Source: a virus. Taken from it: a stretch of DNA of 38,491 nt. Made by a program: the position numbers and the translations under genes. Numbering within the stretch: position 1 is the first letter of the stretch; each line of letters starts with the position of its first letter. Of this stretch, positions 14,818 through 22,475 are shown piece after piece. The stretch is from the IMG/VR virus record IMGVR_UViG_3300035662_000066, positions 1 to 38,491 of that record; one strand, 5' to 3'. The notes under the pieces are model-generated. The model was not told where the DNA came from, searched no databases, and worked only from the letters and a program-made list of their open reading frames with translations.

Positions 14818-15155
14818 GCCTTTTGCTCCAAACATTTTTTGATTTGTGAATATGTTTCTGCTTTCTTGATTTGGTCTGTTGTGAATCTCAATACACGCCA
14901 TCCTTCTGATGTTGCAATGTTGTATTTTTCCATGTCTGATTTATAGCCAACACCTCTTGTATGTCTGCCTTGAATCCAAATGCCACCTTCAATTTCAACT
15001 GCCAATTTTTCATCCATCCATGCAAAGTCAAATCTGAATCTTCGCTTGTCAGTCACTTTGACTTCCTGCATTGGTTCCTGAATTCCATATGTCTTGCACA
15101 ACTGCAAAAACACAATTGCATTCTTTTTCTCTTTTCCTTTTCCATCTGTCACCAT
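14814..15155 (-). CDS. Vsr/PD-(D/E)XK-like endonuclease
   Basis: This 113-aa nuclease has RRFRFDFAWMDEKLAVEIEG at 38-57 (Asp43, Glu54, Glu56). GGIWIQGRHTRGVGY then follows (57-71, His65, Arg67), and EKYN and GWRVLRFTTDQI come after. This layout is typical of a compact phage endonuclease family related to Vsr. It overlaps the primase-helicase by 7 bp. Resolution of replication or recombination intermediates, or host DNA cutting, are possible. No Holliday-junction resolvase of another type is seen, so this may fill that role. Confidence 0.78.
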   Translation of the reverse strand: MVTDGKGKEKKNAIVFLQLCKTYGIQEPMQEVKVTDKRRFRFDFAWMDEKLAVEIEGGIWIQGRHTRGVGYKSDMEKYNIATSEGWRVLRFTTDQIKKAETYSQIKKCLEQKA

Positions 15156-16867
15156 GTTTGCCCCTCGTATGTTTGTAATTCAGAATATGATTGTGTTGGA
15201 ACATCATATTGAAATGGAATTCCCATTTTGTTGACTTTGCCAATGTATTTATTCTTGACTTTTGCAATCATGATTCTTGCAAGTGACTTTCCATCCATTT
15301 CAAAGTCACGATGCACAATCATGATGTTGTGTGGAATGTTGTAAAAATTGGATGATCCTGAAATTGAATAAGGTGTTGGCACCTCATAATTTCCAAAATT
15401 ATCCAATGACTGCATCTTTCTTGGATGTGCAATCAAGACAATATGAATTCCTGTCTTTGAGGCAAACATTCTCATTTTCGCGAGCATTCTTCCAACATAC
15501 AAATTCTCTGTTTCTCCTTTTGCCATTTGCATTTCTAAATTGTTCCATGGATCAATCACTAACATATTGATTCCAAACCTACGCAATAGCAACCGTGCTG
15601 TTGCCAAGACATCATCAAGAGCAAATGTATCTGAATCAGGCATGATATAAAACAAATGTTTTCCAATCCATGACAAAGCCTTTGCCATTGTTTCCTTTGT
15701 CATCCTGTTTCTATTTCCATTCTCAAAAGGTTGCTTGGTGAATATTTCACAAAGTCTCATCAACCAAATTTCAGGGGATGGATTTTCAGGTGAAAACACC
15801 GCTGTCTTCCATCCTGCATGTTCAGCCAATGCAATTGTGATATGGTCAATGAAATTTGATTTGCCAAATGACGGCACGCCTGATACAACAGTCAATTGCC
15901 CTGCATGCCATGTGAAGTGATTATCAAAGCGCGGAAAAATTCCTGTAACTGCACCATCTTGGAATCCATGTTCATAAATATCCATCATTGATTGCATGAA
16001 ATCTGTTGCTAATTTCACACCTTCAATTGGGTATTGTTCAGACTCTGCAATCAATTTGTACAGATGCTCTGCACCATGTTTCATCAGGACATCATTTGCG
16101 TCTTTGCATCCATCAGGGAACCTAACAATGCGACATCTTTCTTTTCCAAATCGCCTTGCCAATTCTTCGCATAATCTTCTGCCAACTGCATCAGCATCCA
16201 CGGCAATATGTATTTCATCAATGCCATCAAAATAATCAATGCAATTGTCAACATAGGACATTTTTGCAATGATATTTTTTGCATCAGGATTTACACCGCC
16301 TTCGGGAACGGAAACTACATTCTGAATTCCTGCCTGGACAAATGACAATGCATCAATTTCACCTTCGCATATTATGGCATATGATTTGTCTTTGATTGAA
16401 TCCAATCGGTAAAAACATTTGTAGCCATCTTTTGTTTGCCTGAATTCCTTTTGTTCTATTCCACGGTATTTCACATTGACAACTTCATCATTCATGATGT
16501 ATGGAAATGCAATCCAATCTTTTCCATAAGCAGAATATGTCACTACTCTTTCTGATTCCAACACATCTTTTGTGATGCCACGCGATTTGAAATAATCAAT
16601 CATCGCTTCTGATTTGTTATCATTGTGGAACCTGACTGCCTTTGGTGGTGGTGGTGCCTGCCATGTTTGCTTTGCATCCTTTGTTGTGATTCCACCGCTC
16701 CACCCGCAATGATGGCACAACCATGTCCTTTCATCAACATTCACAGACAGGCATTTTTCATTTGGATGATTCTGTCTTGTGTGTGAACATTCGGGACACA
16801 ATGTCCTTTGCTGTCCTTTGAATTTTGCATCTATTCCTTTGATGCCATAATCAATAAAACTACTCAT
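15149..16867 (-). CDS. Bifunctional primase-helicase (T7 gp4/Twinkle-like)
   Basis: This 572-aa protein has three parts. An N-terminal zinc ribbon has Cys24, Cys27, Cys51 and Cys54. A TOPRIM primase core has CEGEIDALS at 167-175 and AVDADAVGR at 222-230. A RecA-like DnaB-type helicase has Walker A GVPSFGKS at 330-337 and Walker B LVIDPWN at 436-442. A later AHPRK motif and a Ser-rich loop fit the DnaB family. It would unwind and prime phage DNA for the host polymerase, since no phage polymerase is present. It overlaps the genes on both sides by 4 and 7 bp. Confidence 0.95.
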   Translation of the reverse strand: MSSFIDYGIKGIDAKFKGQQRTLCPECSHTRQNHPNEKCLSVNVDERTWLCHHCGWSGGITTKDAKQTWQAPPPPKAVRFHNDNKSEAMIDYFKSRGITKDVLESERVVTYSAYGKDWIAFPYIMNDEVVNVKYRGIEQKEFRQTKDGYKCFYRLDSIKDKSYAIICEGEIDALSFVQAGIQNVVSVPEGGVNPDAKNIIAKMSYVDNCIDYFDGIDEIHIAVDADAVGRRLCEELARRFGKERCRIVRFPDGCKDANDVLMKHGAEHLYKLIAESEQYPIEGVKLATDFMQSMMDIYEHGFQDGAVTGIFPRFDNHFTWHAGQLTVVSGVPSFGKSNFIDHITIALAEHAGWKTAVFSPENPSPEIWLMRLCEIFTKQPFENGNRNRMTKETMAKALSWIGKHLFYIMPDSDTFALDDVLATARLLLRRFGINMLVIDPWNNLEMQMAKGETENLYVGRMLAKMRMFASKTGIHIVLIAHPRKMQSLDNFGNYEVPTPYSISGSSNFYNIPHNIMIVHRDFEMDGKSLARIMIAKVKNKYIGKVNKMGIPFQYDVPTQSYSELQTYEGQTW

Positions 16868-17977: not shown

Positions 17978-18413
17978 CTTTGTGATTCCTGATGAATTCC
18001 AATACATATTCTGCTTGTCTATTTTTGTCAACTGCCATCATATTGATTTTGTTGACAATCCTAATTGGCAAATTGTAAATTGCTGATGCATGTCTGTCTG
18101 CACAAAACCTTCCGTCTTCATCTGAACACCATTCTTGATATTCTGCTGAATCGTATGTGAATTCAGTATCGTAGTCATTGATTGCATAAGATTTCAACCC
18201 ATTGTATTTGATGTAATCATCAGAGCGCAACCATGCCAACGCTTCAAAGAAATTCAATTTGATATTGCTTCCTGATTCCCAACCCTTGCCAAGATATGTT
18301 TCCAATTTTTCAGCATCTTCAAAGAGCGTTCCCAATCCGAATATGTCATAATTTTCAGTCGGGAAATGATCACGAAAATATATCGTGTCCTGTTCTAAAA
18401 AATCAAAGCGCAT
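17967..18413 (-). CDS. Hypothetical acidic protein
   Basis: This 148-aa protein is rich in Asp, Glu, Tyr and Phe (DYDTEFTYDSAEYQEW, FRDHFPTENYDIFGLG). It overlaps the DnaA-like gene by 11 bp and the glycosyltransferase by 11 bp. The composition resembles DNA-mimic or host-takeover proteins, but no family was recognised. Confidence 0.7.
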   Translation of the reverse strand: MRFDFLEQDTIYFRDHFPTENYDIFGLGTLFEDAEKLETYLGKGWESGSNIKLNFFEALAWLRSDDYIKYNGLKSYAINDYDTEFTYDSAEYQEWCSDEDGRFCADRHASAIYNLPIRIVNKINMMAVDKNRQAEYVLEFIRNHKDAK

Positions 18414-18972
18414 TGTGTTTCCTTCTGTTAGAAATTTGATGAATAAACTTATCTATTTTGTGACAAATTACACGCTCTCTTTCGTAGGCTTCAATCATTC
18501 CAATTGCATCATCAATATGGGTCACAATCGTGCTGTGGTCTTTGCCTAATAGTTTGCCAATTTGAACCATAGTCAATTGAAAATAATAATATGCAAAAAA
18601 TGATATGTATTTGCGAACAATTGGCAATGGAAGTTTTCTTGATTTTGACATCAATTCTTCCATGCTCACTTCATATAAATTGCAAATGAAAACCATTGTC
18701 AAATTGACATCCATGTGCAGTTTGTGACTTATGATATATTTGTTCCTGAACAATTCTGCAGACTTTGAAAAATGCGCTGCTGATGGTGTTGTTGACTTCA
18801 TTTCATCGGGTGCTCTTTGCATGTATTGCGTTGACTTTCCAAAGTATCTTTCACGCTCTTCCCGCAAAACATCAGAATGCCTGCCTGTCTTAACTCGGTT
18901 ATCTTTTGGCTTTGTGCTTTCCGCAACATCACCAAGATTTCCAATTGATACGAATCTTTCCATGTGGATCAT
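18403..18972 (-). CDS. DnaA domain IV-like replication protein (no AAA+ domain)
   Basis: This 189-aa protein has a C-terminal 100 residues matching DnaA domain IV. A helix with SMEELMSKSRKLPLPIVRKY is followed by the recognition signature IGKLLGKDHSTIVTHIDDAI, comparable to the (R)DHTTVLHA motif of DnaA. The N-terminal 80 residues are polar and lack Walker motifs. It could bind DnaA boxes or a phage origin without ATP-driven melting. It overlaps the origin-candidate gene by 4 bp, which supports a joint function in initiation. Confidence 0.8.
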   Translation of the reverse strand: MIHMERFVSIGNLGDVAESTKPKDNRVKTGRHSDVLREERERYFGKSTQYMQRAPDEMKSTTPSAAHFSKSAELFRNKYIISHKLHMDVNLTMVFICNLYEVSMEELMSKSRKLPLPIVRKYISFFAYYYFQLTMVQIGKLLGKDHSTIVTHIDDAIGMIEAYERERVICHKIDKFIHQISNRRKHNAL

Positions 18973-19586
18973 CCTTTGAATTGTGCTTTGACTGGTGAAT
19001 TCATTTTTGTTTGTGCCTGATTCTTTTTCAGCAAATTCATGATGACAAGTTCACCGTTTTTCATGGTGTTTGCCAATGCCTTCAAATGCCTGATTTTGTC
19101 ATTCCAAAATTCATCACGAAATGCACTAAACAAAGCCTGTTCAATCATGGCATGTGAATACCCTAATTTGTACAATTTGCGAAGTGCCTTCAAAGCATGA
19201 ATCTTTTGCTGCCTTGATGAAAGATACTCAATTTGCAATTCATCTTTCAAGTGCCCAAACAATTTTTCATTCAATTTTTCAAGTGATGCAAGTTCATTCG
19301 AATTGAAATCGGACAAACTTGATTCAGTTCGCTTTGGTTTTGGGGTTCCTGAATCATCACTGATTCCCCCCCCTTTATTCCCCCCCTCTTTTTCTCCCCT
19401 TAAACCCCTCTTATTCTCCCCCCCTATAATCCCCCCCAAATTTGAGAAAGAATATATTTCTTTTTGTGATACTTTTTCTTTGCCTGATTCATGCATCAAA
19501 TCCAACTTGGTGCTGATGTCTGCCAAATGACTTTCAATTCCTTGCAGAATTGTGGCAATTGTCTGAATTATGTTCTGATTTTCCAT
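18969..19586 (-). CDS. Replication-initiator-like protein with Gly-rich linker encoded by a G-tract cluster
   Basis: This 205-aa protein has three parts: an N-terminal coiled coil (1-40), a low-complexity linker (about 50-80, LGGIIGGENKRGLRGEKEGG) and a helical C-terminal domain (105-190). The last has IEQALFSAFRDEFWNDKI, reminiscent of phage replication and DnaT/lambda O-type domains. The linker-coding DNA is the G/C-tract cluster at 19366-19437. The layout recalls lambda gene O, whose linker-coding region is the origin. Domain assignment is my inference from architecture and position beside the DnaA-like gene. Confidence 0.65.
   Translation of the reverse strand: MENQNIIQTIATILQGIESHLADISTKLDLMHESGKEKVSQKEIYSFSNLGGIIGGENKRGLRGEKEGGNKGGGISDDSGTPKPKRTESSLSDFNSNELASLEKLNEKLFGHLKDELQIEYLSSRQQKIHALKALRKLYKLGYSHAMIEQALFSAFRDEFWNDKIRHLKALANTMKNGELVIMNLLKKNQAQTKMNSPVKAQFKG
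19366..19437. other. Mirror-symmetric G/C-tract cluster, candidate replication origin
   Basis: Six C-runs on the plus strand (G-runs on the minus) have lengths 8, 7, 4, 4, 7 and 7. Their spacers are 6, 9, 5, 9 and 6 bases, so the pattern is symmetric about the centre. The strand is nearly all pyrimidine. The element could form G-quadruplex or triplex structures. An A+T-rich stretch follows (19438-19485). Glycines here are mostly GGG, whereas the poly-Gly tail at 24288-24488 uses GGT and GGC, which points to selection on DNA rather than on protein. Confidence 0.7.
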
Positions 19587-19726: not shown

Positions 19727-20320
19727 TTACATGATTCCATTCAAGAAATTGCGTTGTGCATCAGTCTGAATAGTGGTTTGTCTTGCTTGTTTTGCCTGAT
19801 CATATTTCCATTGATCCTTTTGATGCTGGTTTTCCATAATATCAGAAACGGAATGCACTGTAAACTTATTCAAATGTGGTGTCAAAAAACCTTTTGCATT
19901 CAAAGCATTGGCAATTTGCAATCTTGAATATCCCTCTTTTTTCATAATCCAAGCAATTCGATATGGTTCATTGTATTGTTTTTCTGCATAGGTTCCAACA
20001 CGGCGCGTTCTTTTCTCATTCATTCTTTTTGCCAATGATGGATTTGTTTCATGTGCCTTTTCAACTGCCTTTGCTGATTGAATTTGCTTTGCAACTTCAT
20101 TCTGAATAATCTTTTTAAGTTCATCCTGAATCATCCTTGGAATTCTGAATTGAATTTCATTCACAATACTATTCAAATGCCTTGTCAATCCTTCAAAAGC
20201 CGTAACCTTCTCTATTGTTGAAATTTGCTGTGATTCCATTTGCTGCAATTTATCATTGAATTCCTGAATCTTTGCATCCAATCCAAGTGTGAATTCTTGT
20301 CTGTTAAAAAATAATCCCAT
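19727..20320 (-). CDS. Coiled-coil protein with C-terminal recombinase-type HTH
   Basis: This 197-aa protein has residues 1-100 that form a long helical, coiled-coil region (LDAKIQEFNDKLQQME). Residues 115-165 (YRIAWIMKKEGYSRLQIANA, then LNAKGFLTPHLNKFTVHSV) resemble the small DNA-binding HTH segment of serine recombinases. There is no catalytic recombinase domain. It may be a DNA-organising or regulatory factor. It lies between the nuclease gene and the structured gap. Confidence 0.65.
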   Translation of the reverse strand: MGLFFNRQEFTLGLDAKIQEFNDKLQQMESQQISTIEKVTAFEGLTRHLNSIVNEIQFRIPRMIQDELKKIIQNEVAKQIQSAKAVEKAHETNPSLAKRMNEKRTRRVGTYAEKQYNEPYRIAWIMKKEGYSRLQIANALNAKGFLTPHLNKFTVHSVSDIMENQHQKDQWKYDQAKQARQTTIQTDAQRNFLNGIM

Positions 20321-21299: not shown

Positions 21300-21576
21300 G
21301 GTCGCCTCCGTAGTTTTCTTTATAGTATTCCTCTGCTTGCGTGTATGCATCTTTTGTCAAATCATGTACAAGTCCGAGTAAATGAGCATCAACAATCTGC
21401 TCTTTTTCCATTTGCTTGGCTTTTACCAAAAATTCATCTAATTTTTCGTGTTGTATTTTAATTACAATGTAATTAATGATTTCGCCCTTTTGGGTGAAAA
21501 AAAATTCATCACCCCAATGTATAGATGTATTTTCTATACTTTGCCTCATCCAATCCACCGCCGTATGCTTACTCAT
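21292..21576 (-). CDS. Conserved Bacteroidota-phage small protein
   Basis: This 94-aa protein begins MSKHTAVDWMRQSIENTSIH and ends with EEYYKENYGGDHE. It has EFLVKAKQMEKEQIVDAHLL in the middle, a pattern I associate with a small protein frequent in Bacteroidota genomes and their phages. The function is unknown. It supports the host assignment. Confidence 0.7.
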   Translation of the reverse strand: MSKHTAVDWMRQSIENTSIHWGDEFFFTQKGEIINYIVIKIQHEKLDEFLVKAKQMEKEQIVDAHLLGLVHDLTKDAYTQAEEYYKENYGGDHE

Positions 21577-22475
21577 GATTGCACCCCTGTGAATTGTTTT
21601 GATTTGACATCATAATTGAATCCAAGTGATTCTGCCTTTGTCTTAATAGAATTCCAAATCTGCATCTTTTCACCTTTCGTGAATGATGATTCAGTCAATG
21701 TGTTCATGATGGCATTGATTGATTCAACTGATTCACATTTGCTTGCTGTTTCAATCATGTTATTGATTGCACGCAATGATTCAGTGTGATTCAATCTAGT
21801 GTGGTTGAATGCAGTCTTGGTTTGTTCAAATATGTTTGCCATGAATGATTCAAGTTCATTGTAATGTGGAATAATGATTGCAGGAAGTTCAGCAGAATTT
21901 TTACCAACTTTCCAATCCTTTGCATCAAAGTCAATGACTGTATTTCCTTTGTCATCTTTGAACATATATCCAACCATGTCTGCCTTCTGAATAATCAAAT
22001 CATAACTTGATCCCTGTGCCAATGGCTTTACTTTCAATTGTTCTGATTCTGTCACCTGTTTGGAATGCATGATAAAAATGATGTCTTTGTTCAATGCTCG
22101 AATCAATTTCAGGAATTTATGAAATGTAGTTTTCAATTCCCCAAACAATTGCATCTTCATGCGCTCTAATTTAGGATTTGTTTCAATATGCCATTCCATG
22201 ATTGAATCCAACATTGTGCCTGCTGTGTCAATTACAATGGTTTCATAATCTTTGATGATGTCAACAAGCATTGAATCATTCGCAATATCTCTCCAATGCA
22301 CATGCTCATAACAGTCTTTGCTTAGTTTGCTTCTTTGGTAACCTTCATCAAAATCCAATACCAATGGTTTGTTTGCTGTGTTTGCCAATGTTGATTTCCC
22401 AACACCCGCTTCACCATAGATGACAAAGATTGTTGATGTCAATGCAAGTGCCTGATCCTGTGTTTTGAATTTCAT
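21573..22475 (-). CDS. Sak4-like RecA-fold ATPase
   Basis: This 300-aa protein has Walker A GEAGVGKST at 21-29, FDEG at about 42-45 and Walker B TIVIDTAGT around 79-87 (Asp83). A sensor-like region FIMHSKQVT follows. This is the layout of phage Sak4 single-strand-annealing ATPases. The C-terminal 80 residues are helical and specific to this protein. Context with the RecB-like nuclease supports a role in recombination. Confidence 0.85.
   Translation of the reverse strand: MKFKTQDQALALTSTIFVIYGEAGVGKSTLANTANKPLVLDFDEGYQRSKLSKDCYEHVHWRDIANDSMLVDIIKDYETIVIDTAGTMLDSIMEWHIETNPKLERMKMQLFGELKTTFHKFLKLIRALNKDIIFIMHSKQVTESEQLKVKPLAQGSSYDLIIQKADMVGYMFKDDKGNTVIDFDAKDWKVGKNSAELPAIIIPHYNELESFMANIFEQTKTAFNHTRLNHTESLRAINNMIETASKCESVESINAIMNTLTESSFTKGEKMQIWNSIKTKAESLGFNYDVKSKQFTGVQS

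Follow-up and report, generated by a model that had tools for sequence, protein, structure and literature searches.

H-DNA has been studied for decades, and few cases with a conserved biological job are known. Its purine-motif form combines a mirror repeat, a purine strand in one arm, in-register G.G:C, A.A:T and T.A:T triads and a short loop, a combination to which the element described here conforms. A purine-motif triplex, in which T is permitted in the third strand, needs the two arms to match in this way, and a quadruplex does not. Unlike typical purine-motif H-DNA, the present element has A/T spacers that interrupt it at fixed positions, is conserved between unrelated phages and sits in initiator genes; its triplex is a prediction from sequence.

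The TM_ECO/boxC/PIT element of enterobacteria is an intrastrand triplex motif that folds as judged by CD and NMR and has been probed in vivo (PMC4666352). It is intergenic and repeated, with 9-nt stems, and Holder et al. (2015) saw no association with phages (PMC4666352).

For the setting of the element, the nearest parallels are lambda gene O and P22 gene 18, where origin parts lie in the linker of an initiator gene, together with iterons and an A+T-rich stretch. The annotated origin of Salmonella phage P22, in gene 18, consists in order of iterons, an A+T-rich stretch and, at the border of that stretch, the string C5 TTA C5 TAAA G5. The locus analysed here differs from both in that its host protein has no family match and no iterons were found. 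A literature search on phage origins that covered triplexes, mirror repeats and G tracts found no description of the element; subscription journals were mostly outside this search, and an earlier description is possible. A paper on Thermotoga oriC that contains the motif string proved irrelevant, as the string occurs in a mutant primer only.

The element and its surroundings

The window, which is the whole 38,491-base stretch of viral DNA that was analysed, contains the following features:

15149..16867, minus strand: primase/helicase gene (Toprim + DnaB_C) of the same replication module
18403..18972, minus strand: DnaA domain IV-like gene (Bac_DnaA_C; PF08299, E 1.1e-9)
18969..19586, minus strand: host gene of the element, 205 aa, without a recognisable family
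19366..19437, G strand on the minus strand: mirror-symmetric G-tract element, 32 of 33 triads allowed in mirror register
19366..19399, minus strand: 3' arm, proposed to supply the purine strand of the duplex part; all G and A but for one T
19400..19404, minus strand: central loop TTTAA
19405..19437, minus strand: 5' arm, proposed third strand of the triplex, with the T-bearing spacers ATTATA and AGAATAAGA
19438..19477: A+T-rich stretch, 82.5% A+T (genome 63%), abutting the outer end of the 5' arm

The initial annotation had described six C runs of 8, 7, 4, 4, 7 and 7 bases separated by spacers of 6, 9, 5, 9 and 6 bases, and this was borne out over 72 bases (runs at 19366-19373, 19380-19386, 19396-19399, 19405-19408, 19418-19424 and 19431-19437). 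Because the host gene is on the minus strand, the G strand is the coding strand in the window. Its 5' half reads 5'-G7 ATTATA G7 AGAATAAGA G4, followed by the central TTTAA and then by G4 AGAAAAAGA G7 AATAAA G8-3'. Apart from the four tract runs of C7 or longer, the 38,491 bases contain no C run of six or more, and the plus strand of the window has no G run of that length. Under a first-order Markov model fitted to its sequence, the whole window is expected to hold on average about one run of seven or more.

The A+T-rich stretch that was said to follow the tract is indeed present and is a candidate DNA unwinding element. No iteron family was recognised near the window tract. The window shows no enrichment of E. 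coli-type DnaA boxes (59 versus 68 expected), and none stands above chance beside the tract. GC skew, which had been proposed as a check on the origin, is monotonic across the window and has no turning point.

The host protein consists of an N-terminal helix (residues 2-35), a Gly-rich linker (37-82) and a helical C-terminal domain (about 90-194). The tract encodes the linker, which is predicted to be disordered, in agreement with the flexible linker first suggested. GGG accounts for 10 of the 18 glycine codons in the host gene versus 46 of 726 in the other genes, a usage about nine-fold higher that upholds the earlier remark on glycine codons; within the window, GGG-GGG codon pairs occur in the host gene only. 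The label of replication gene was not confirmed, as searches of Pfam, PHROGs and the PDB gave no credible match for the protein. Its AlphaFold model (mean pLDDT 69.5) gave weak matches only, the best of them, at E 0.015, to viral helix-turn-helix and replisome organizer models. The DnaA domain IV-like neighbour was recovered as annotated; its gene appears to occupy the same position in L381, L382 and L384, and its product is a candidate origin-binding protein. The gene upstream of the host gene (19727-20320) has a weak match to the Recombinase family (PF07508, E 5.9e-5), and a gene for a Sak4-like annealing protein is found at 21573-22475.

Conservation in homologues of the host gene

Homologues were sought with the whole protein, and the profile search was repeated with the C-terminal domain alone because the whole-protein profile took the tract itself as a pattern. 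Each of the nine homologues that cover the linker, with identities in the C-terminal domain as low as 24%, retains six mirror-matched runs. The run lengths on the G strand, with a slash at the centre, are as follows:

Window and L003: 7-7-4/4-7-8
L001 and L006: 7-7-5/5-7-7
L002: 7-9-6/6-9-7
L005: 6-7-5/5-7-9
L011: 7-7-4/4-7-7
L018: 8-9-5/6-9-8
L024: 7-7-5/5-7-8
L384: 8-8-3/3-8-8

The lengths vary among the homologues and do so in step on either side of the centre, with an inner pair of 3-6 nt matched within 1. The reading-frame register of the tract is shifted in L002, L018 and L384 within this one family. No homologue was found that keeps the linker and has lost the tracts. The kept runs, the shifting frame and the choice of glycine codons support the proposal of selection at the DNA level, and the element is almost certainly selected as DNA.

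Six further contigs (L004, L007, L008, L381, L382 and L385) stop inside or at the tract, and those of L381 and L385 are 36-37 kb long, close to the window's record. Such breaks fit a structure that stops polymerases; plain homopolymer trouble could also cause them.

Mirror symmetry and the fit to a triplex

The symmetry noted in the window is real and common to its relatives. In a set of 31 distinct multi-run elements, run and spacer lengths had a mirror asymmetry of 0.41 on average, versus 1.58 when lengths were permuted within elements, and none of 2000 permutations was as low; this and the other permutation figures are descriptive and not strict probabilities, because the elements are partly related by descent and were treated as separate. 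In the two-run form, equal runs flank ATTATA in 194 of 227 cases (85%), compared with 42% after shuffling (highest 55%).

The triplex model folds the 5' arm, as third strand, antiparallel onto the 3' arm, which is the purine strand. Under this model 81% of spacer positions are allowed, versus 66% in shuffled sets (highest 71%), and G faces G at 27 of 40 places in the spacers, where 8.7 were expected (highest 16). For whole arms, compared in 28 elements, 83% of positions are allowed with the element's own partner, 60% with swapped or foreign partners and 71% with the roles reversed. L006 reaches 33 allowed triads of 33. In L074, L078 and L166 the triplex fit is little or no better than with foreign arms. 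The spacers of the 3' arm are 83% purine and 7% T, and those of the 5' arm are 36-41% T; it is from this base composition that we infer the third-strand role of the 5' arm. As a separate observation, a C in place of A in the 3' arm of L216 and L178 tends to face T in the 5' arm, as if T.C:G triplets were formed.

It had been left open at first whether a G-quadruplex or a triplex would form. The symmetry, the arms and the two-run forms favour the triplex over the G-quadruplex, and it is fairly probable that the element acts as a purine-motif triplex. Under a G-quadruplex reading, replication proteins would be recruited or blocked by one or two quadruplexes formed from the six G runs. The element has a G4Hunter score of 2.11 and the highest density of G/C runs in the window, and the long form offers at least four runs with short loops. 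However, a quadruplex needs four runs and has no need of mirror-equal runs and spacers, and the symmetry is strong. Two-run forms keep equal lengths yet cannot fold alone, and nothing in a quadruplex calls for spacer letters that match across the mirror or for arms that differ in T content. We consider this alternative unlikely.

The same element in other phages

A spacer-blind scan of IMG/VR for two run pairs showed that other contigs share the element's architecture, and that ATTATA often separates their first run from the second. Many matches to a six-run pattern were poly-G ends of contigs, and these were filtered out on run length and composition. A scan for G5-ATTATA-G5 returned at least 119 stretches in IMG/VR viral contigs and again at least 119 in genome contigs. 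Over all viral contigs the reversed spacer was found 5 times and the complementary spacer 4 times, versus at least 119 for ATTATA. The centre loops of elements elsewhere are TCT, TGT, TTC, TGCA and TATTA.

When 56 ORFs containing the element were scanned against PHROGs, 21 matched phrog_270, 'replication initiation protein'; other frequent families were O-like, primosomal and DnaD-like. Hosts that were checked singly matched replication families in nine cases out of ten. The element is shared by phages whose replication initiator genes are unrelated. Repeated 9-mers (iterons) are commoner 3' of the element in 42 of 48 loci and 5' in 1 of 48, and the first 40 nt on its 3' side are 74% A+T in the initiator-gene class. 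In the window, the A+T-rich stretch is on the 5' side of the G strand, versus the 3' side in that class. At the level of sequence comparison, the element is established as a conserved mirror repeat under DNA-level selection that is common to initiator genes of unrelated phages.

The coding strand in the initiator-gene class is usually the C strand, opposite to the window, and many of these frames encode PP linkers in place of GG. With the gene on opposite strands in the two cases, an RNA or protein role is unlikely. An RNA element was rejected: Rfam gave no match, neither strand of the window element has a stable Watson-Crick fold (z about -0.7), and most relatives are transcribed from the other strand. 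That the tract serves the protein, as a Gly-rich or Pro-rich flexible linker produced by an accident of codons, agrees with the disordered linker that it is predicted to encode. It is highly improbable given that GG and PP linkers arise from opposite strands in different families, that the frame shifts within one family and that GGG is used so far in excess of other genes.

Two-run G_n ATTATA G_n forms also occur in intergenic positions by the terminase small subunit gene (L131, L162, L223, L163 and L204) and near the end of the large-subunit gene (L146/L179 and L187); some of the terminase-side forms adjoin a short inverted repeat. Since two-run forms adjoin terminase genes as well, the motif is not confined to origins and may have more than one use. 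A different G cluster, with five or six runs, was seen in the viral contigs L037 (4464-4527) and L052, and in L037 two DnaA-box-like TTATCCACA sequences, inverted with respect to each other, come after it. In Mycobacterium phage Brujita (L388), gene 63, a replication initiation gene, contains on its coding strand short GGGGAACA direct repeats and then G6 TGT G6.

Comparison with P22-type origins and TM_ECO

Modules similar to that of P22 are present at the same place in Cronobacter phage phiES15, Klebsiella KO-TP1 and Edwardsiella EPP-1, and are absent from the lambda ori and from the initiator genes of Pseudomonas F10 and Burkholderia Bcep176. Lambda gene O had been offered as a comparable plan; as lambda lacks the module, P22 is the better parallel. 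A scan of 296 Enterobacterales genomes with the pattern C5-N3-C5-N0-6-G5 gave 14 positives, and thirteen loci were examined. Six of the thirteen are prophage initiator-type genes with repeats, an A+T-rich stretch and the module, and the others are mostly GC-rich, palindromic or poly-C chance sites.

On its G strand, the P22-type module runs C stem, loop, G stem, TAA/TTA loop, G stem. TM_ECO shares this order of stems and a TTA-type second loop. The P22 stems, at 5 nt, are below the minimum of 6 in the search of Holder et al. (PMC4666352). Unlike TM_ECO, the form in the window lacks a C stem and would depend on a duplex: the element does not show the TM_ECO-type arrangement (a C stem 1-6 nt from the first G stem, with stems of at least 6), and next to its 5' end there is no C run of at least 4. 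Some relatives, for example L242, do have such a C stem. In Bacteroidales genomes, a repeated intergenic CCCCCTTTGGGGGATTATAGGGGG was observed that is REP-like and can also be read as a C-G-G intrastrand triplex motif; its loci include L243, L247, L278, L296, L310 (Xylanibacter rodentium), L265, L308 and L309 (Draconibacterium).

Proposed role in replication

The most likely explanation is that the tract is a cis-acting DNA element, probably part of a replication origin, and that the linker of the host gene is encoded incidentally. An origin role is likely because the same element occurs in initiator genes of unrelated phages beside iterons and because a related module lies in the annotated P22 origin. 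These relatives support the origin first proposed for the tract, and we regard it as likely that the element belongs to one.

Three other readings were considered. A single-strand signal, in which a folded G.G or C-G-G hairpin is read by a primase or primosome protein or acts as a barrier that determines fork direction, would not involve duplex opening. The module borders the A+T-rich stretch in P22 and the prophages, and forms of the type C_n-loop-G_n-loop-G_n can fold on one strand, both of which suit such a signal. The window form, however, has neither a nearby C run nor a stable Watson-Crick fold, and the confinement of the purine bias to the 3' arm points to a duplex partner, so this reading is improbable. 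A packaging signal or other DNA-end signal (cos/pac-like) would explain the two-run forms that adjoin terminase genes at the loci named above, but multi-run forms sit in initiator genes, and the window's own portal and terminase-type genes appear to lie some 15 kb off, at the record's opposite end, which makes it very unlikely. As for a promoter, the strongly preferred ATTATA is the complement of the -10 consensus, so TATAAT on the C strand could be a -10 box. No -35 enrichment was detected at 14-25 nt over 231 elements, several elements carry other spacers, and a promoter leaves the equal flanking runs and the mirror extension unexplained; we give it almost no weight.

We return to the triplex-forming part of a replication origin, an explanation that, taken as a whole, appears somewhat more probable than not. 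In negatively supercoiled DNA, the G strand would detach from its complement along its 5' half, and this half would turn back to lie antiparallel on the 3' half, against its purine strand. The product would be a purine-motif triplex, or H-DNA, of G.G:C, A.A:T and T.A:T with about 33 triads and a 5-nt loop. About 33 nt of the C-rich strand (19405-19437) would be left unpaired beside the A+T-rich stretch, which would favour opening and keep the two strands separated during helicase loading. Candidates for the origin-binding and loading factors are the DnaA domain IV-like protein and the product of the host gene. Simpler P22-type phages appear to rely on the same idea in a short C-G-G form. This opening mechanism is put forward tentatively, as somewhat less probable than not.

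The arms covary in many phages whose initiator genes are unrelated, which points to selection for a triplex at the start of replication. It is conceivable, though somewhat doubtful, that triplex DNA is a dedicated unwinding device built into the origins of many temperate phages, across a range that extends from phages of Bacteroidota to phages of Proteobacteria. As part of that same tentative reading, covariation would keep the mirror arms matched, and the triplex would be a general, unrecognised step in origin opening. If this is true, P22-type origins would be a tractable system for testing triplex-driven DNA opening in cells, the element would provide a practical sequence signature for locating phage origins, and the assembly breaks at such sites would be explained.
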